A DNA stretch of 64,000 nucleotides from Alphaproteobacteria bacterium. Its GTDB lineage: Bacteria; Pseudomonadota; Alphaproteobacteria; DSM-16000; Inquilinaceae. Location: positions 1-64,000 of the forward strand of contig JANQGH010000017.1 of NCBI GenBank assembly GCA_028277405.1, in the 5' to 3' direction. The notes below the pieces were generated by a model. It searched no databases and was not told the origin of the DNA. It saw only the letters and a list, made by a program, of their open reading frames with translations. The translations under genes were made by a program, and so were the position numbers. This document shows, one piece after another, positions 4,973-13,293 of this stretch (the first letter of the stretch is position 1; the number at the start of each line of letters is the position of its first letter).

Positions 4973-5665
4973 TCATAATCGTTCGAAAATGAAGAAATCG
5001 GCGAACGAGGTGTTGTCAGGGTTCTTGGTGTCGAATGGAAACCGGTTGGGTAGATGGGCAGTTAGCCGGAAATCCTTGCGTTTTTGGTCCACCCAATCGG
5101 TGAATCTTCGGTGCCGCACATGCTCAGCTTCGTGTTGTTCGTTCTTGTTCGATGTGTAAACGATCACAAAGCGGTTCGCGGCATCATAAAGCGTTTCCAT
5201 ATAGTTTTCATAAGTGGCGTCTTCGACGAGGTGATAGATAACGTCCAACGACAGCGCCAGATCGGCTTTTTGTCCTTCGTACGCCGCGAGAGTAACGAAG
5301 GTCTTGCTAGTGTCTTCAGCAAATCGTGCTTGACAGTCGAGCACAGCCTTCTTCGAAACATCGACGCCTGTATAAGCCGGGTACTTCGCATAGTTCAACT
5401 GATTGCCATCGCCTGAGCCAAACTCGATAACGCTGTCGATTTCATGCTGCGCAACAAAATCGTTCAGCACCTCTGCTTTGTACAAGGCAAGCCGACCGTA
5501 ACTGCCTGCACCGGAGTTACCGCCATCCAAATACCGTTGTTCCCAGTAGTCACTTGAAGTTGTGAAGTCGAATTTTCCTCGCTGTGAGAATTGCTTGTAT
5601 ATGGACCGCGCAATTGGCTCTAACGGCGTGCCGATCAGCGTGTTTTTGATCCGATTCTTAAGCAT
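4973..5665 (-). CDS. Class I SAM-dependent methyltransferase
   Basis: A 230-residue protein with a Rossmann-type methyltransferase core. Motif I is VIEFGSGDGNQL (around 79-90), an acidic position follows in TGVDVSKKAVLD, and LALSLDVIYHLVED is the post-II motif. The substrate is unknown. The N-terminal FDFTTSSDYWEQRYLDGG resembles methyltransferases of polysaccharide or natural-product clusters, but no such cluster is adjacent. The gene and its flanks (about 4.83-5.88 kb) are visibly AT-richer than neighbouring genes and use many A/T-ending codons, which suggests recent transfer. An AGAGGC Shine-Dalgarno precedes the ATG. Confidence 0.82.
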   Translation of the reverse strand: MLKNRIKNTLIGTPLEPIARSIYKQFSQRGKFDFTTSSDYWEQRYLDGGNSGAGSYGRLALYKAEVLNDFVAQHEIDSVIEFGSGDGNQLNYAKYPAYTGVDVSKKAVLDCQARFAEDTSKTFVTLAAYEGQKADLALSLDVIYHLVEDATYENYMETLYDAANRFVIVYTSNKNEQHEAEHVRHRRFTDWVDQKRKDFRLTAHLPNRFPFDTKNPDNTSFADFFIFERL

Positions 5666-5886: not shown

Positions 5887-7107
5887 TTAAGGTGTCGACC
5901 CGTCCACCCGGCGCACCACCAACGCCGCGTTCAATCCGCCGAAGGCGAAGCTGTTGGATAGGGCCGTGCGGATTTCCATCGGCCGCGCCTCGTTCGGCGC
6001 GTAGTCCAGATCGCATTCCGGGTCCGGCTCGGTGAAGTTGGCCGTGGGCGGCGCGAGGTTCTCCCGCATTCCCATGATCGTGGCGATCATCTCCAAGGCG
6101 CCTGAGGCGCCCAGGCAGTGGCCGTGCATGCTTTTGGTCGCGGAGATCACCAGCCTATCGGCGTGATCGCCGAAGACCTGGCGGATCGCCCGTGTCTCGT
6201 TGACGTCGTTGAGCTGCGTTCCCGTGCCGTGGGCGCTGATATAGTCGATCTCCTCCGGCGCCACGCCGCCATCGCTCAAGGCCCGTTCCATCGACATGAT
6301 CGCGCCGTCGGCGGCCGGCTGCACCAGATCGTCGGCGTCGGCACAGAAGCCGAAGCCCAGCAGCTCGGCCAGGATGGGAACGCCGCGTTGCTCGGCCGAC
6401 TCGAAGGTTTCCAGGACCAGGATGCCGGCGCCCTCACCGACGATCATGCCCTTGCGGTCGCGGCTGAACGGGCGGCAAGTGTCCGGCGCCACTACGCGCA
6501 GCGCCTCCCAGGCCTTCATCGCGCCGATCGAAAAGCTGGTTTCCGATCCGCCGGCCAAGACGATGCGCGACTGGCCGGTGCGCAGCATCATCATGGCGAC
6601 GCCAAGCGCGTGGTTGCTGGTGGAACACGCGCTTGAGACCGAAAAGCACGCCCCCCTGATGCCGAGATCCATACTGATCTGGCTCGCCGCCGCGCTGACC
6701 ATGAAGCGCGGTATCGTCAACGGGTGCAGCCGCGCATTGCGGGCGTAGAGCCTGTGGTAGGCCTCGTCCAGCGTAGTGAGGCCGGCGGCCCCCGTGCCGG
6801 CCACGACCGCCGTTTCCGTCGCCAGCGCGCCGGACAGGTCCAGGGCGGCGCTGGCCACCGCCTCGCGCGCCGCGATGATCGAGAATTGCGAGAACCGGTC
6901 GAGCATGTTGGCCTGCCGATTGGCGAAATGGTCGGCCGGCTGATAGTCGCGCACCTCCGCCGCCATCTTGTAGGTGAGATGGTCGTAGAGTTCCGGGCTG
7001 ACCTGACCGATGCCCGGTCGCCCGGCCTTGGCGTTCGACCAGAAGGTCGGAACGTCGTGTCCCATGGCGCTGATTTGGCCGAAGCCTGTTACTGCAATTC
7101 TGGTCAT
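5887..7107 (-). CDS. Beta-ketoacyl-ACP synthase (FabF/NodE-like), second ketosynthase of the acyl locus
   Basis: Condensing enzyme of 406 residues that would elongate an ACP-bound acyl chain with malonyl-ACP. The Cys-His-His triad is complete: SSACSTSNHA with Cys161, HGTGT, and KSMHGH. It also carries the GEGAG and NSFAFGGLNA landmarks. It is closer to the KS at 11772-12983 (shared SAAASQ, DTCRPF, RKGM, PPTANF and PDPECDLDY) than to a housekeeping FabF, so the two look like paralogues with related jobs. It is divergent from the LptF-type gene. A 60-codon frame ends 3 bp upstream. Substrate is inferred from neighbours only. Confidence 0.9.
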   Translation of the reverse strand: MTRIAVTGFGQISAMGHDVPTFWSNAKAGRPGIGQVSPELYDHLTYKMAAEVRDYQPADHFANRQANMLDRFSQFSIIAAREAVASAALDLSGALATETAVVAGTGAAGLTTLDEAYHRLYARNARLHPLTIPRFMVSAAASQISMDLGIRGACFSVSSACSTSNHALGVAMMMLRTGQSRIVLAGGSETSFSIGAMKAWEALRVVAPDTCRPFSRDRKGMIVGEGAGILVLETFESAEQRGVPILAELLGFGFCADADDLVQPAADGAIMSMERALSDGGVAPEEIDYISAHGTGTQLNDVNETRAIRQVFGDHADRLVISATKSMHGHCLGASGALEMIATIMGMRENLAPPTANFTEPDPECDLDYAPNEARPMEIRTALSNSFAFGGLNAALVVRRVDGSTP

Positions 7108-7110
7108 GGC

Positions 7111-7293
7111 CTATCGAGCGGGAAGAGCAAGCTTGTGTCCGGGGTGGTTGACGGCGGGAACCTCGATCGCGCCGGGCGACCGGCGCTCGCGTTTTAGCAC
7201 GGCACGGGGGGACGGCAAGGGCGATGCCCGATACTTGATGTCAATCAGGCGGTTGGCCAACCGCTCGACCAGTAATGTGCCCAGGCCGATCAT
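7111..7293 (-). CDS. Possible small protein upstream of ketosynthase
   Basis: A 60-codon frame from ATG (7293) ending 3 bp before the ketosynthase start. The N-terminal part reads MIGLGTLLVERLANRLIDIK, a plausible amphipathic helix, and the rest is basic and proline-rich. There is no clear Shine-Dalgarno and I recognise no family. Its tight spacing to the ketosynthase is the only argument that it is real. It could equally be a chance frame in a GC-rich promoter region. Confidence 0.22.
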   Translation of the reverse strand: MIGLGTLLVERLANRLIDIKYRASPLPSPRAVLKRERRSPGAIEVPAVNHPGHKLALPAR

Positions 7294-7382
7294 GCATTGC
7301 GCAAAGCTGTGATATGGCGGAGACGGCCGGCTGTGCTACATGGACCGGGAACTTGGAAGGCAAGGGCCTTGGCGGCGCGTTG

Positions 7383-8534
7383 ATGCTTCGCACACGACTG
7401 TACATTTTGAAGATGCTGGCCAAGTCGCTGGTCATCACCTCGCTGGTGGCGACGGCGGTGGCTTGCCTAGTCTATTCCCAGCGCTATCTGGACGAAATCG
7501 TCGAACGGTCGTTTCCGGTGATCATGTTCTTCGAGATCATCGTGACGCTGATGCCATTCCTGCTTGTCGTCGCGATCCCGGTCACGCTGTCGATCAGCAT
7601 CGTGTTCATCTACAACAAGCTGATCACGGACAGCGAGATCCTGGTCTTGCGCGCCGCGGGGGTCAGCCAGTTCGGCCTTGCGACGCCGGCGATCTGGCTG
7701 GCGCTGTTGGCGACGGGCCTGTCCTATCTGATGACGCTCTATTTCGTGCCGCTGTCCTATGAGCGCTTCAAGGACATCGAGACCATGGTGCGCAGCGGGC
7801 AGGTCGAGATCTCCCTGCCGGCGCGGACGTTCAACACGTTGGAGCGGAACCTGACCGTCTATTACAGCGAAGAGCTTGAGGACGGCACGATGCAGTCGAT
7901 TCTGGTGCAGGACAACCGCAATCGGGCGGAGCCGATTACGGTGATCGCCGAGAGCGCCAGGGTTTCGCCGGAGGATGGCGAGTTTCGGATCTTCTTTTGG
8001 AACGGGGTCCTGCAACGGTTCGATCGCGAACAGTCTCAAATCACGTCCATCAGCTTCGATCAGTATGTCCTGACCTTGAACATCCTCGCGAACGGCCGAT
8101 CGCTGGATGACCGGCCGCTGGAACCAAGAGAGATGGGCCTGGCCCAGGTCATCGCCGAGCAAAGCAATCCGGACATCGGCGAACGGCAGCGCAACGAGGC
8201 GACGGTCGAGGTCTATACCAGGCTGGTCAGCCCGCTCCTGTGCTTCACCGTGGCCATGATTGCCGTGACGGTCATGTTCGTCGGCGAACAGGTGCGCACG
8301 CGTTTTGCCAAACGCGTTTTTGCCGTCGGTGTGTGCATTGCCGCCCTGCTGTTGCTGTTTCAGTGGCTGATGGCCCTGACGCGCGGCAACCCGATGTTTG
8401 GGCCCTTACTGCCGGTCGCGGCGATCTTGCCGGGCGTCATTGCCACCATTGTTCTGTGGCTCAGCAACCGCCGCGCGCCCCGACCGTGGAGAGCCCGCCG
8501 CCGGGACCGGCTGGTGCAAGCCTCCGGCGCCTGA
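7383..8534 (+). CDS. LptF/LptG-family (YjgP/YjgQ) permease, lone copy
   Basis: Inner-membrane permease of the lipopolysaccharide export family, 383 residues from the ATG at 7383 (MLRTRLYILKMLAKS). Family layout is intact: two N-terminal transmembrane segments with EILVLRAAGVS between them, a periplasmic jellyroll-like region (about 130-270), then three C-terminal helices including MFGPLLPVAAILPGVIATIVLWL. In canonical LPS export LptF and LptG work as a pair with LptB and LptC and are normally adjacent; here only one is present. Its 3' end overlaps the convergent acyltransferase gene by 129 bp. The context suggests export of a modified lipid rather than the bulk LPS route, but that is inference. 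Confidence 0.88.
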   Translation: MLRTRLYILKMLAKSLVITSLVATAVACLVYSQRYLDEIVERSFPVIMFFEIIVTLMPFLLVVAIPVTLSISIVFIYNKLITDSEILVLRAAGVSQFGLATPAIWLALLATGLSYLMTLYFVPLSYERFKDIETMVRSGQVEISLPARTFNTLERNLTVYYSEELEDGTMQSILVQDNRNRAEPITVIAESARVSPEDGEFRIFFWNGVLQRFDREQSQITSISFDQYVLTLNILANGRSLDDRPLEPREMGLAQVIAEQSNPDIGERQRNEATVEVYTRLVSPLLCFTVAMIAVTVMFVGEQVRTRFAKRVFAVGVCIAALLLLFQWLMALTRGNPMFGPLLPVAAILPGVIATIVLWLSNRRAPRPWRARRRDRLVQASGA

Positions 8535-9440
8535 GGTTGTCGCCGGCTGCTGGGGCCGGCCCCAGAACTGCAGCCAGACCCATTGTTCCGGCGTTTCGCG
8601 CACCCACCGCTCCGCGATTGCGTCCACCCGGTCCGCCAGCCACGCCTCGTCGGCATCCGGGTCGCCTGTGTTGCGCGGCTCGATCGGGTCATCCAGGACA
8701 AGCTCGAAGCGGGCACCGTTGAGGCGCTTCATGCGGGCGGGTAAGACCACGCAAGGCTCGCGCTGGCTGATTCGGATGACGCTGTGCAGGGCCGACGACC
8801 GCATTCTCCGGTGGCCGAAACTGGGCACCATGATCCAACCGGACAGGCGCTCGTCCATCAACATGCCGAGGCGCGCGCCAGGCAGGGCGAAATGCGTCAG
8901 CGCCTCGCGCGTGCCGGTCGTGTTCTTGGCAAACTGGTTGACGCCGGCGCCGTTACGGATCCGGGTCAGAATGTCGGAGATGTAGCGGTTGTTCGGCGGC
9001 TTGAAAAAGACCGGCGTCGGCGCCCCCCAGCCGGCCGACATGATCGGCGCCAGCTCGAAGTGCGCCAGGTGCAGGCTGACCATCAGGATGCGCTTGCCTT
9101 CGGAGATCGCGTCCAGGGACGGCTGAATGTTGACGACATCGACGCGGCCGGACGGGATCATCCGGTGCAACACGGCATATTCGGCGATGATGCGGCCAAG
9201 ATTCTCCCAGGCCAGCCGCTCCAGCCGATCCAACTCCGGTCCGTCCGCCTCAGGTCTCAGATAGGCCAGGTTCGCGCGCAGGCGGTCCCGCTTGTGGCCG
9301 GCGAACCGGCGCGCGATGCGCCCCAGCGCCGCGCCGAAGCCGGACACAGCGCTTATGGGCCAGGGCCGCAAGGCGGCGAGGAACAGTCGCAGCCCTGCCC
9401 CCTCAAGCCATTCGCGTCGCGGATTGCGTTTTGCCGCCAC
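8406..9440 (-). CDS. LpxL/HtrB-family acyltransferase (second copy)
   Basis: Late lipid A acyltransferase-like protein of 344 residues. The catalytic HX4E motif is SLHLAHFE (His124, Glu129), with FFKPPNNRYISDILTRIR and MLMDERLSGWIMVPSFG as the other family blocks and ETPEQWVWLQFWGRP near the end. It starts 2 bp after the preceding paralogue stops, so the two are probably co-transcribed. The last 43 codons (8406-8534) run antisense through the 3' end of the LptF-type gene and are low-complexity, so this tail may be a recent extension. Acyl donor and acceptor are unknown; the neighbouring ACP is the obvious donor candidate. Confidence 0.88.
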   Translation of the reverse strand: MAAKRNPRREWLEGAGLRLFLAALRPWPISAVSGFGAALGRIARRFAGHKRDRLRANLAYLRPEADGPELDRLERLAWENLGRIIAEYAVLHRMIPSGRVDVVNIQPSLDAISEGKRILMVSLHLAHFELAPIMSAGWGAPTPVFFKPPNNRYISDILTRIRNGAGVNQFAKNTTGTREALTHFALPGARLGMLMDERLSGWIMVPSFGHRRMRSSALHSVIRISQREPCVVLPARMKRLNGARFELVLDDPIEPRNTGDPDADEAWLADRVDAIAERWVRETPEQWVWLQFWGRPQQPATTSGAGGLHQPVPAAGSPRSGRAAVAEPQNNGGNDARQDRRDRQ

Positions 9441-9442
9441 GC

Positions 9443-10339
9443 CTAGAGGTCCCAGCGCCTATGGGGCCACAGCCACTGTTCGGGCGTGTCGCGAAGCCAG
9501 CGCTCCAGCACCTCGTTCATGCGCTCCAGCAGCCAGTCGACATCGGCCTCCTGGTCGCCGGAAGGGGTTCGTTCGATCGGCGGCTCGCAGATCACGTCGA
9601 AGCGGGCGCCGTCGGTGCGCTTGACCCGGACGGGGATGATCTTGGCGCCGTAGCGCAGGGCCATCTCCGCCGCTGTCGGTGCGGTTTTGACCGGATGGCC
9701 GAAAAAGGGCACGAGCTTGCCGCGCAGGCTGCGCTGGTCGATCAACATCGCCAGGTTGCCGCCGGTCGCCAAAACCTTCATGGCACTGCGAATCGATTCG
9801 GTGCCGCGCGGCAGCAAGGTCATGCCGCAATCGACCCTCAGCCCCCTGATGATACGGTCGACGAAGCGGTTGTTGGGCGGCCGGTAGATGCCGGTCATGG
9901 TCATGCCGTGCCGTTTGGCGACGATCGGCGAGATCTCCCAATGGCCGATATGGCCGCTGACCAGCAACAGCGGGTGCTTGCCATAAAGCTCGCGGATGTA
10001 GTCGTCGCCGTAGATCGTGATGCGTTCGCTGTTCGCGATGCGTCCCAACGAGGCATACTCCGTGGCCACGCGCCCCAGATGGCCCCACATGTCGCGCATG
10101 ATCTGGTGGCGTTCCTCGTCGGATTTCTCCGGAAACGCGATCGCCAGGTTCGACAGCGACTTCTCGGTCGGCTTGCGGATGCGCGGGCCGATCAGCCGGC
10201 CCAGCCGGTTGCCGAGGCCCGACGCCCAGTCCACCGGCAGCAGCCCCAGCGCCTTGAACGTCAGGTACATCGGCAGTGCCTGAAGGGGGTGCCAGATCCA
10301 ATGCTGTCGCCAGGCCTGCCGGGGTGTGTACCGGCTCAT
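9443..10339 (-). CDS. LpxL/HtrB-family acyltransferase (first copy)
   Basis: A 298-residue membrane-associated acyltransferase of the lipid A secondary acylation family. An N-terminal hydrophobic segment (about 20-40) anchors it. The HX4E motif is SGHIGHWE (His130, Glu135), followed by YRPPNNRFVDRIIRGLR and MLIDQRSLRGKLVPFFGHP, the blocks that bind the acyl donor and the phospho-sugar acceptor in the family. The C-terminus has the typical DTPEQWLWPHRRW. It overlaps the P450 gene by 4 nt (ATGA), strong evidence for a joint operon. Confidence 0.92.
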   Translation of the reverse strand: MSRYTPRQAWRQHWIWHPLQALPMYLTFKALGLLPVDWASGLGNRLGRLIGPRIRKPTEKSLSNLAIAFPEKSDEERHQIMRDMWGHLGRVATEYASLGRIANSERITIYGDDYIRELYGKHPLLLVSGHIGHWEISPIVAKRHGMTMTGIYRPPNNRFVDRIIRGLRVDCGMTLLPRGTESIRSAMKVLATGGNLAMLIDQRSLRGKLVPFFGHPVKTAPTAAEMALRYGAKIIPVRVKRTDGARFDVICEPPIERTPSGDQEADVDWLLERMNEVLERWLRDTPEQWLWPHRRWDL

Positions 10340-11739
10340 CTGCGTTCGATGGTCATCGGCAGGCCGTGGCGGGGGCGCAAGGTCAGACGCGATTGCGGCT
10401 CCACCGGATGGCCTGGCCGCAGCCTCAGTCTGTATCGCTGGCCCAAGGTGGCGAGGATCAACACCGCTTCGGTGCGCGCGAACGACGCCCCGATACAGGT
10501 CCGGGGGCCGGCGCCAAAGGGCACGTAGGCCAGCTTGTGGCGTGGCTTGGGCGGCTCCATGCCCGCCGGCGGTTCTACCTTCTCATAGTAGAAGCGATCC
10601 GGGTCGAAATGGTCCGGGTTGCGCCACAGGCCGCGATGCCGGTGCAATAGCCATGGGCAGACGGCGACGAAGCTGCCCGCCGGTATCGTCTTGCCGGCGA
10701 TCTTGTCCTCTGCCCTGGCCTTGCGGGTCAGGATCGGGATCGGCGGATAGAGCCGCATCGCCTCCTCGAACACCGACAGCACGTAGGGCAGGCGGGCGAC
10801 GTCCGCGTAGGCGGGTTGCCGGCCCTCCAGGACGCGATCGATTTCGTCGTGAAACCGCTTCTCGACCGATGGCGCCTGCGACAGCAGATACCAGGTCCAG
10901 GCCAGCGCGTTGGCCGTGGTTTCGTGGCCGGCAAAGAAGAACACCGACAGCTCGTCGCGGATTTCGTCATGCGGCCGGTCGCCGCCCGTGTCCTCGTCGG
11001 GTACGGCCAACAGGATCGACAGCAGGTCCTGGTACTCGTCCTCGTGACCCCGGCGGGCGTGGATCATCGCGTCCAGGACCTGGTTGATGCGTGCCAACGC
11101 GCGGCGGGCCCTCGGGCGCGGCCGCTTGGGCAGCCAGGTCGGCAGCCCCATGAACTCATCGAACTCCACCTGCCGCAGGGCGTCGATGTATTCGGTGAAG
11201 CTCTGGTAGATGACCTCCGCCTTGTCACCGAGATCGGACGAAAACATGGTGCGGCAAATCACCTCGGCCGTGACCTGGGCCATCTGCTCGCCCATCTCCA
11301 GCTCGATCTGGCCGCCGCCCTGATCGATCTCCTGGCCCCAGCGCTCGGCCTGTTCGGCGGCCGTCGCCGCCATGGTCTCGGAGAACTGCTTGATGCGCGA
11401 GACGTGGAATGCCGGGGTCGCGTTGCGGCGCTGGCGCCGCCAGGTGCCGCCATCGCTCAACAGCATGGAGTTGCCGATCAGCGGTCCCAGCGCGTTCTTC
11501 ATCTCGTCGGACTTGGGATAGTTCTCGACGTTGGAGAACAGCACGTGGCGCACGGTGCGCGGGCTGTTGGCGATGAACAGCCAGCGCAGAAAGAACTTCT
11601 GCGCCAGGAAGCTGGCGAAATAGGCCTCCTCGGGCCAGACCGCGATGACGTTACGCCTGGCCTGCAGGATCGCCTTGATCGGCGATAGCCGCTTGCTCAG
11701 GCGCGGCGGCATCGCCGGGATGAAGGTATCGGTGGTCAT
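10336..11739 (-). CDS. Cytochrome P450 (fatty-acid-hydroxylase type)
   Basis: Haem-thiolate mono-oxygenase, 467 residues. The I-helix oxygen-activation motif FAGHETTAN, the K-helix EAMR (ExxR) in VFEEAMRLYPPIPIL, and the haem loop FGAGPRTCIGASFA with Cys415 are all intact. Length, the WRRQRRNATPAFH C-helix block and the ExxR context resemble the CYP4/CYP102-like group that oxidises fatty acids rather than the short soluble camphor type. No reductase or ferredoxin gene is adjacent. It sits between a ketosynthase and two lipid acyltransferases and is overlapped by the latter, so the likely substrate is an acyl chain on ACP or lipid; this is inference. Confidence 0.93.
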   Translation of the reverse strand: MTTDTFIPAMPPRLSKRLSPIKAILQARRNVIAVWPEEAYFASFLAQKFFLRWLFIANSPRTVRHVLFSNVENYPKSDEMKNALGPLIGNSMLLSDGGTWRRQRRNATPAFHVSRIKQFSETMAATAAEQAERWGQEIDQGGGQIELEMGEQMAQVTAEVICRTMFSSDLGDKAEVIYQSFTEYIDALRQVEFDEFMGLPTWLPKRPRPRARRALARINQVLDAMIHARRGHEDEYQDLLSILLAVPDEDTGGDRPHDEIRDELSVFFFAGHETTANALAWTWYLLSQAPSVEKRFHDEIDRVLEGRQPAYADVARLPYVLSVFEEAMRLYPPIPILTRKARAEDKIAGKTIPAGSFVAVCPWLLHRHRGLWRNPDHFDPDRFYYEKVEPPAGMEPPKPRHKLAYVPFGAGPRTCIGASFARTEAVLILATLGQRYRLRLRPGHPVEPQSRLTLRPRHGLPMTIERR

Positions 11740-11771
11740 GCGCGTCTACCTGGCCGCGACCGGCGGCGCCA

Positions 11772-12983
11772 TCAATGCAGCCGGCGAAAGGCCAGGACCG
11801 CATTCAGCCCGCCGAACGCGAACGAGTTGGACAGCGCCGTGTCGATCGTCATGCTGCGCGCGGCGTTCGGAATGTAGTCCAGGTCGCATTCGGGATCGGC
11901 CATGGTGAAGTTCGCGGTCGGCGGCGCGATCTGGTCCGCGATCGCACGTGCCGTGATCACGGCCTCCAGCGCGCCGGCGGCGCCCAGACCGTGGCCATGC
12001 ATCGATTTGGTCGACGATACCGCAACCTGGCTCGCCGCCTCGCCGAGCGCCAGGTGGATGGCCTTGGTTTCAGCGACGTCGTTCTGCCCCGTGCCGGTGC
12101 CATGGGCGTTGATGTAGTGCAGACCCTCCGGCGCTATCTCGGCTTCGTCCAACGCTTGTCGGATGGCACGCGCGGCGCCCTCGGCCGAGGGGTCGGTCAA
12201 GCTGCCGGCGTCGGACGTCATGCCCATGCCGGCGATCTCGGCATAGATGCGGGCACCCCTGGCCTGGGCATCCTCCAGCCGCTCCAGCACCAAGACGCCG
12301 GCACCTTCGCCCAGCACCATGCCCTTGCGGTCAATGCAAAAGGGCCGGCAGGTGTCGACGGACAAAACGCGCAAGGCTTGCCAGCCGAGCATCGAGCCGA
12401 AGACGAGGCAGGCCTCGCTGCCGCCCGTGACCGCGGCGCGCGCCCGCCCGGACTTGATCATCCAGTAGGCTTCGCCGATGGCGTGATTGGCGGACGAACA
12501 GGCGCTGGTCACGCCGAAAGCGGGGCCGTTTAGCCCGTATTCCATCGTCACCTGGCTGGCCGCGGCGCTGGGCATCAGCTTAGGAATGCTCATCGGCGGT
12601 GTGCGGATCTTGCCCTGGCCAAAGATCCGCTCACTGTCCTCGTTGATCGTCTTGGCGCCGCCGATGCCGGTGCCGATGATCACCGCGGTATCGTCGTGCA
12701 GCCCATGATCGAATGTCAGGCCGCTGTCGGCGATGGCCTCGCGCGCCGCGACCAGGGCGTATTGCGAATAGGGGTCGATCACCGCCAGCTTTACGGGGTC
12801 GAAGTGTTTCTCCGCGTCGAAACCCTTGACCTCGGCGGCAACGTGGATCTTCAGCTTCTCCGGCGGGATCGCCGTGATCGGCCCGATACCGGACACCCCT
12901 TCCACCGCTGAGCGCCAATGGCTGTTGGCATCATGGCCCAGCGCGGAAATGCACCCAAGCCCTGTGATGGCGACACGATGCAT
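11772..12983 (-). CDS. Beta-ketoacyl-ACP synthase (FabF/NodE-like), first ketosynthase of the acyl locus
   Basis: Condensing enzyme of 403 residues with a full catalytic set: Cys162 in VTSACSSANHA, HGTGT and KSMHGH, plus GEGAG and NSFAFGGLNA. The start MHRVAITGLGCISALG is typical. It lies 43 bp after the ACP gene and 32 bp before the P450, on the same strand. Because both ketosynthases of this locus keep their active-site cysteine, neither looks like a chain-length-factor partner. It is probably dedicated to elongating a chain on the adjacent ACP. Confidence 0.92.
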   Translation of the reverse strand: MHRVAITGLGCISALGHDANSHWRSAVEGVSGIGPITAIPPEKLKIHVAAEVKGFDAEKHFDPVKLAVIDPYSQYALVAAREAIADSGLTFDHGLHDDTAVIIGTGIGGAKTINEDSERIFGQGKIRTPPMSIPKLMPSAAASQVTMEYGLNGPAFGVTSACSSANHAIGEAYWMIKSGRARAAVTGGSEACLVFGSMLGWQALRVLSVDTCRPFCIDRKGMVLGEGAGVLVLERLEDAQARGARIYAEIAGMGMTSDAGSLTDPSAEGAARAIRQALDEAEIAPEGLHYINAHGTGTGQNDVAETKAIHLALGEAASQVAVSSTKSMHGHGLGAAGALEAVITARAIADQIAPPTANFTMADPECDLDYIPNAARSMTIDTALSNSFAFGGLNAVLAFRRLH

Positions 12984-13026
12984 GCTGCTACTCTCGACAG
13001 GAAAGGCCCGGCCAAGCGGGCGTCGG

Positions 13027-13293
13027 TCAGGCGGCGTTCTTTTCGTTGATCAGCCGCTGCACGCCGTCCACGACATCCTGTAGGGTGTCCAGCTTCATGG
13101 CGTCGCGGTCCTGCGGCACATCGATGTCGAATTCGTCCTCGATGGCAAAGATGATCTCGACCAGATCGATGGACTCAATCTCGATATCTTCCAGGCGATC
13201 GCTCAGCGACAGTCCCGCGGGATCGACCCGCCGTTGATTGGCGACGATTTCGACGATCTTGCTTTCGACGGTTTTGGTGTCGACTTCACTCAC
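13027..13293 (-). CDS. Acyl carrier protein (specialised)
   Basis: An 88-residue acidic ACP. The phosphopantetheine site is Ser41 in IEIESIDLVEIIFAIEDEF, slightly different from the DSLDxVE of housekeeping AcpP, and the protein is longer than usual AcpP. It is the first gene of the leftward ACP-KS-P450-acyltransferase-acyltransferase operon. By analogy with AcpXL of rhizobia it may carry an unusual long or modified chain for transfer to lipid A, but sequence identity to AcpXL is not evident by eye. Confidence 0.93.
   Translation of the reverse strand: MSEVDTKTVESKIVEIVANQRRVDPAGLSLSDRLEDIEIESIDLVEIIFAIEDEFDIDVPQDRDAMKLDTLQDVVDGVQRLINEKNAA

Follow-up and report, generated by a model that had tools for sequence, protein, structure and literature searches.

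We analyzed a seven-gene region of the window, as we call the whole 64,000-nucleotide stretch of DNA under study, and found an acyl carrier protein (ACP), a ketosynthase (KS1), a cytochrome P450, and two LpxL-family acyltransferases encoded in one tight run. Our preferred reading, to which we give a probability of roughly 60%, is that a P450 has here been merged with the genes by which the organism adds secondary acyl chains to lipid A; that the region is a lipid A locus is very probable. The window genome is 97.7% complete at 6.2 Mb, and the only LpxL-family proteins (two) and the only LptF found in it are encoded here, with LpxC, LpxD, and LptD on other contigs; we therefore consider that the region encodes the housekeeping late acylation of lipid A, together with the LptF of the exporter, and not a side pathway with an exporter of its own. 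The initial annotation had proposed a system for making, hydroxylating, attaching, and exporting a special acyl chain. The parts of this proposal that held were a single lipid A/LPS acylation context and a P450 of the fatty-acyl-hydroxylase type, while a dedicated LptF had to be given up and the rhizobial system serves as an analogy only.

Gene layout and the LPS genes of the window genome

The coordinates and Pfam domains (Table 1) agreed with the layout described earlier, including the convergent LptF and the second ketosynthase (KS2). Recomputed from the coordinates, the intergenic gaps along ACP, KS1, P450, LpxLa, and LpxLb are 43, 32, –4, and 2 bp, the negative value reflecting a 4-bp overlap of the P450 stop with the LpxLa start (ATGA). 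The 3′ ends of LpxLb and LptF overlap convergently by 129 bp, and the Pfam domain of LpxLb does not reach into its last ~50 residues. Judged from its homolog in G390, a genome of the same family, LptF probably starts at 7383 (MLRTRLYILKML). Promoter and terminator scans of the locus gave matches at or near chance level. No dehydratase gene was found between 5.7 and 14 kb using the ORF list and Pfam, and no P450 redox partner was found in the locus. Downstream of KS2, a SAM methyltransferase-like gene (4973–5665) lies in a patch of lower GC content (57.5% in the 4- to 6-kb bin vs. about 63–66% in the flanks) and is possibly a recent import.

Table 1. Genes of the locus, with their positions in the window and the domain evidence
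Gene	Position	Strand	Features
ACP	13027–13293	–	88 aa; Ser in ESID motif; heads the operon; PF00550 (PP-binding) 37 bits
KS1, beta-ketoacyl-ACP synthase of the ACP-linked FabF-like clade	11772–12983	–	ketoacyl-synt N and C domains (Pfam/NCBIfam)
Cytochrome P450	10336–11739	–	PF00067 (p450) 267 bits; CYP184/CYP97/CYP4/CYP102-like fold
LpxLa, canonical lipid A late acyltransferase	9443–10339	–	PF03279 (Lip_A_acyltrans) 176 bits
LpxLb, second, divergent LpxL-family acyltransferase	8406–9440	–	PF03279 72 bits
LptF, LPS export permease, convergent	ORF 7275–8534, likely start 7383	+	PF03739 (LptF_LptG) 167 bits; TIGR04407 180 bits
KS2, second ketosynthase, KS1 clade	5887–7107	–	ketoacyl-synt N and C domains; active-site residues present

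Both LpxL proteins exceed the PF03279 cutoff of 22.3 bits and retain an intact HX4E motif, and they thus share the domain and the motif of the LpxL/LpxM late acyltransferases. They differ from the usual members of that family in being encoded with an ACP, a ketosynthase, and a P450 of their own and in the divergence of LpxLb, which is 33% identical to LpxLa. LpxLa groups with the alphaproteobacterial lipid A LpxLs (97/92 clade). A mixture-model tree placed LpxLb between the canonical LpxLs and a clade of P450-linked LpxLs from other loci (100/99) that excludes both window proteins; a quick tree had placed LpxLb nearest to the latter clade, a result that the mixture model did not confirm.

The locus LptF belongs to the LptF/LptG family and scores higher as LptF (TIGR04407, 180 bits, below the curated cutoff of 230) than as LptG (TIGR04408, 71 bits). 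The genome encodes one further protein of the family, an LptG on contig C52 that passes its cutoff (TIGR04408, 257 bits). An LptF-type protein dedicated to exporting a special product, as suggested earlier, was therefore rejected: the protein is the sole LptF of the genome, its partner LptG is on C52 and LptD on C28, and we consider it an ordinary subunit of the LPS exporter. As LpxC, LpxD, LptD, and LptG are all present, the organism is expected to make LPS. Its other genes for lipid A and for LPS transport are dispersed (L284, L285, L289, and L129, on C8, C24, C28, and C52): lpxD is next to a fabZ-like gene on C8, C24 carries an lpxA-like gene and C28 lptD, and C52 has lptG–surA without lptF or lptD.

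The P450 and its LpxL partners in other genomes

The P450 has the domain of a P450 monooxygenase and its motifs are intact (I-helix AGHETT, matching AGxxT; ExxR; and the heme-Cys motif FxxGxRxCxG). Its AlphaFold model has a pLDDT of 89.7, and the nearest neighbor in fold and sequence is CYP184A1, one structure of which contains oleic acid, followed by the carotenoid P450 CYP97, CYP4B1, and P450 BM3 (CYP102A1); identity to the fatty-acyl P450 neighbors is about 22–30%. The motifs and the fold neighbors bear out the earlier description of a CYP4/CYP102-like enzyme, in the sense of a fatty-acyl-hydroxylase type, and they fit a long-chain acyl substrate, although they do not prove it. In contrast to these best neighbors, the window P450 is a stand-alone enzyme in a lipid A operon.

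We scanned genomes using the window P450 and four LpxL-paired P450s as the query and retrieved 80 loci, 35 of which have an LpxL-family neighbor on the strand of the P450. In a tree of 124 P450s, LpxL-linked sequences made up 40 of the 67 in the clade of the window P450 and none of the 57 outside it, a fraction that holds for the query's neighborhood of P450 space, with gene neighbors playing no part in the retrieval. An earlier search with the window P450 alone had found an LpxL neighbor in 2 of 29 other top loci within short flanks. The hosts of the 35 loci with an LpxL neighbor belong to Rhizobiaceae, Roseomonadaceae, Acetobacteraceae, Stappiaceae, Beijerinckiaceae, Devosiaceae, Methylobacteriaceae, Methylococcaceae, Halomonadaceae, and Legionellales. 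Most of the measured P450–LpxL junctions (n = 38) are within 15 bp, and 17 of them share the window's gap of exactly –4 bp; the HX4D/E motif is kept in all 39 P450-linked LpxLs. On a Shinella plasmid, the RefSeq annotation reads "cytochrome P450" and then "lipid A biosynthesis lauroyl acyltransferase". The co-occurrence with LpxL beyond this strain, which the initial annotation had proposed as a check, was thus seen as a recurrent and tightly coupled pair, often with a 4-bp overlap. The window has the layout of the pair, with an LpxL directly downstream on the same strand at a gap of –4, while its LpxLs, as described above, fall outside the partner clade.

Within the collection, which included no congener, a P450 between KS1 and LpxLa was found in the window genome only. 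The initial annotation had named a neighborhood not conserved beyond this strain as a sign against a joint pathway, and the outcome was divided: the five-gene order ACP–KS–P450–LpxL–LpxL was seen in this genome only, and the modules ACP–KS, dual LpxL–LptF, and P450–LpxL each recurred elsewhere. The P450 could be an unrelated gene for detoxification or for fatty acid or terpenoid oxidation, inserted in the lipid A operon by chance and sharing no pathway with it. The uniqueness of the order so far speaks for such an insertion, as do the unrelated gene neighbors of the closest P450 relatives; no LpxL adjoins the P450s of L092 and L131, the two nearest relatives of the window P450, which is itself basal in its clade. 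We nevertheless consider a chance insertion quite improbable, given the 4-bp overlap with LpxLa, the tight spacing on one strand throughout the five-gene run, and the clade-wide association with LpxL. In our judgment, the acyl chain transferred by LpxL is probably what the P450 acts on.

The gene neighbors of the pairs in other genomes bear on the acceptor of that chain. Some pairs adjoin a type I FAS/PKS (KS-AT-DH-ER-KR-ACP), an AOS-like PLP enzyme, and Capsule_synth, and others an SDR and a Poly_export (Wza-like) protein; pairs beside capsule-lipid-like genes were seen in Halomonas, Legionellales, Beijerinckiaceae, Devosiaceae, and Rhizobium loci. The set of type I synthase, AOS-like, SDR, and Capsule_synth genes resembles the rkp/wcb capsule-lipid loci, and the acceptor of the P450–LpxL module may therefore differ between loci. 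For the P450-linked LpxLs themselves, the acceptor may be other than lipid A, since their clade excludes the window LpxLs and some of them lie in capsule-type loci.

These neighborhoods support a reading in which the pair makes a non-LPS envelope lipid: an acyl or sphingoid-like chain is hydroxylated by the P450, and the LpxL-type enzyme acylates the lipid anchor of a capsule or exopolysaccharide (rkp/wcb-like) or another lipid, the P450 in the lipid A operon of the window being incidental. The presence of canonical LpxLs and a separate P450-linked LpxL in genomes such as G391 agrees with it. For the window we find it unlikely: neither LpxL is in the P450-linked clade, the gene that the P450 overlaps is a canonical lipid A LpxL, and the ORF and gene lists contain no PKS, AOS, or capsule gene around the locus. 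The locus differs from the rkp/wcb loci in having no type I FAS/PKS or AOS-like gene nearby in these lists, and its chain-building genes are of type II. We tentatively propose, at a little short of even odds, that P450 and LpxL form a widespread and undescribed module for hydroxylating an acyl chain and linking it to an envelope lipid, and that in the window genome a P450 of this kind has become part of the lipid A operon.

Our literature searches found nothing relevant on a P450 with lipid A or LpxL; a mono-modular PKS (swf) system was considered as a lead and dismissed, having no P450. The recurrent P450–LpxL cassette, sometimes beside rkp-like capsule-lipid genes, thus appears to be undescribed. 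At five loci (L181, L189, L153, L148, and L191), the pair lies by an rkpA-like type I FAS/PKS, an AOS-like PLP enzyme, and/or Capsule_synth, gene sets that suggest a hydroxylated, acylated lipid anchor for capsules. A Methylobacterium metagenome-assembled genome (L205, 9962–13091) has a tandem P450–LpxL–LpxL followed by Wza-like, SDR, and Capsule_synth-like genes; its layout of a P450 with two LpxLs matches that of the window but stands in an exopolysaccharide locus. In two Thiotrichaceae loci (L133 and L138), P450s of the clade have in their vicinity a ketosynthase grouping with type I PKS domains, and not an LpxL.

A candidate route to a hydroxylated lipid A chain

Under the preferred reading, KS1, perhaps with KS2, would extend an acyl chain on the dedicated ACP, while housekeeping fatty acid synthesis would supply the ketoreductase, dehydratase, and enoyl reductase. 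The P450 would hydroxylate the chain, either as acyl-ACP, free, or lipid-bound, and before or after the LpxL transfer. By analogy with the structural relatives, the omega or a near-omega position would be the most likely target, a placement that we offer with clear reservation. LpxLa and LpxLb would then, as we strongly infer, move two secondary acyl chains onto Kdo-lipid A, at least one of them from this pathway. LPS export by LptB2FG is established for the Lpt families, and the mature LPS would leave through this ordinary machine, whose sole LptF in the genome is encoded at the locus.

To our knowledge, hydroxylation of lipid A is attributed to non-heme dioxygenases (LpxO), and which enzyme places the (omega-1) hydroxyl on the lipid A chains of rhizobia is unsettled. 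The P450 found here within a lipid A operon offers a concrete candidate chemistry for hydroxylating lipid A chains and, if the tentative proposal of a widespread P450–LpxL module is true, it would be the first member of the P450 family known to modify lipid A. The P450–LpxL pair provides an entry point in genera with cultured species, namely Rhizobium, Ensifer, Shinella, Roseomonas, Halomonas, and Methylobacterium.

The ACP–ketosynthase pair and its link to LpxD

The ACP retains its serine, and both ketosynthases have the catalytic Cys and His and a KSMHGH motif in the alignment. KS1 and KS2 are 49% identical and fall in the same 13-row clade (SH-aLRT 99), in accordance with the close relationship noted earlier; KS2 has no adjacent ACP. 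The clade is separate from the housekeeping FabF on C52 and from the rhizobial FabF-XL proteins.

The rhizobial acpXL-fabZXL-fabF2XL-fabF1XL-(adh)-lpxXL locus for very-long-chain fatty acids (VLCFA) combines a dedicated ACP, two ketosynthases, and an LpxL-family transferase and yields a hydroxylated lipid A chain (PMC11901934, PMC5613085). The window shares the dedicated ACP, the two ketosynthases, and the LpxL-family transferase, but it has no dehydratase (fabZXL) or alcohol dehydrogenase and has instead a P450, two LpxLs, and LptF. Its ACP is not an AcpXL, scoring 26.5 bits against the model NF005079 with a cutoff of 83, compared with 168–190 bits for four Hyphomicrobiales AcpXLs, and its ketosynthases belong to another clade. 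Membership in the acpXL system was excluded on the ACP score and the separate ketosynthase clade: an AcpXL, a ketosynthase of the FabF1XL/FabF2XL lineage, and a clustered fabZXL were each found to be lacking in the window locus. The job related to that of rhizobia, as originally suggested, is retained as an analogy and not as homology in kind; most likely, the locus would work like the rhizobial VLCFA locus, whose characteristic product is a C26–C30 (omega-1)-hydroxy chain on lipid A, without being a member of its family.

At least 10 alphaproteobacterial genomes have an orthologous ACP–KS1 pair, and in eight of them (G390, G065, G064, G247, G022, G100, G387, and G087), LpxD directly precedes the pair. 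In six of the eight (G022, which is listed as 100% complete, G064, G100, G247, G387, and G390), this LpxD is the only full LpxD found. The closest syntenic relative of the window is the locus of G390, which reads LpxLa–LpxLb, convergent LptF, LpxD, ACP, KS1, and then genes of LPS-core type; its ketosynthase is 61% identical to KS1. The G390 contig begins at LpxLa, placing the region upstream, and with it a possible P450, outside its view.

As the ACP–KS pair goes with LpxD in most relatives, the P450 and the ACP–KS set might modify a primary acyl chain, transferred by LpxA or LpxD, instead of a secondary one. The LpxD–ACP–KS order in eight genomes is the evidence for this; in the window genome, LpxD is far from the locus, with BamA- and OmpH-like genes before it and a FabZ-like gene after it, and ACP, KS, and P450 are placed with the LpxLs. 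For the window, we thus consider modification of a primary chain an unlikely alternative to the secondary acylation that we prefer.

No description of the LpxD–ACP–KS unit was found in the open-access literature, and the unit is apparently undescribed. It suggests a second dedicated system for building lipid A chains in Alphaproteobacteria, independent of acpXL. One genome listed as 99% complete (G080; L269 and L098) has ACP–KS1 and a P450–LpxL pair on one contig and no LpxD over the cutoff; there, the ACP–KS pair must have another role or LPS must be absent. The LpxD–ACP–KS unit itself was observed at L114, L265, L267, L268, L270, L271, L272, and L273, in diverse Alphaproteobacteria.
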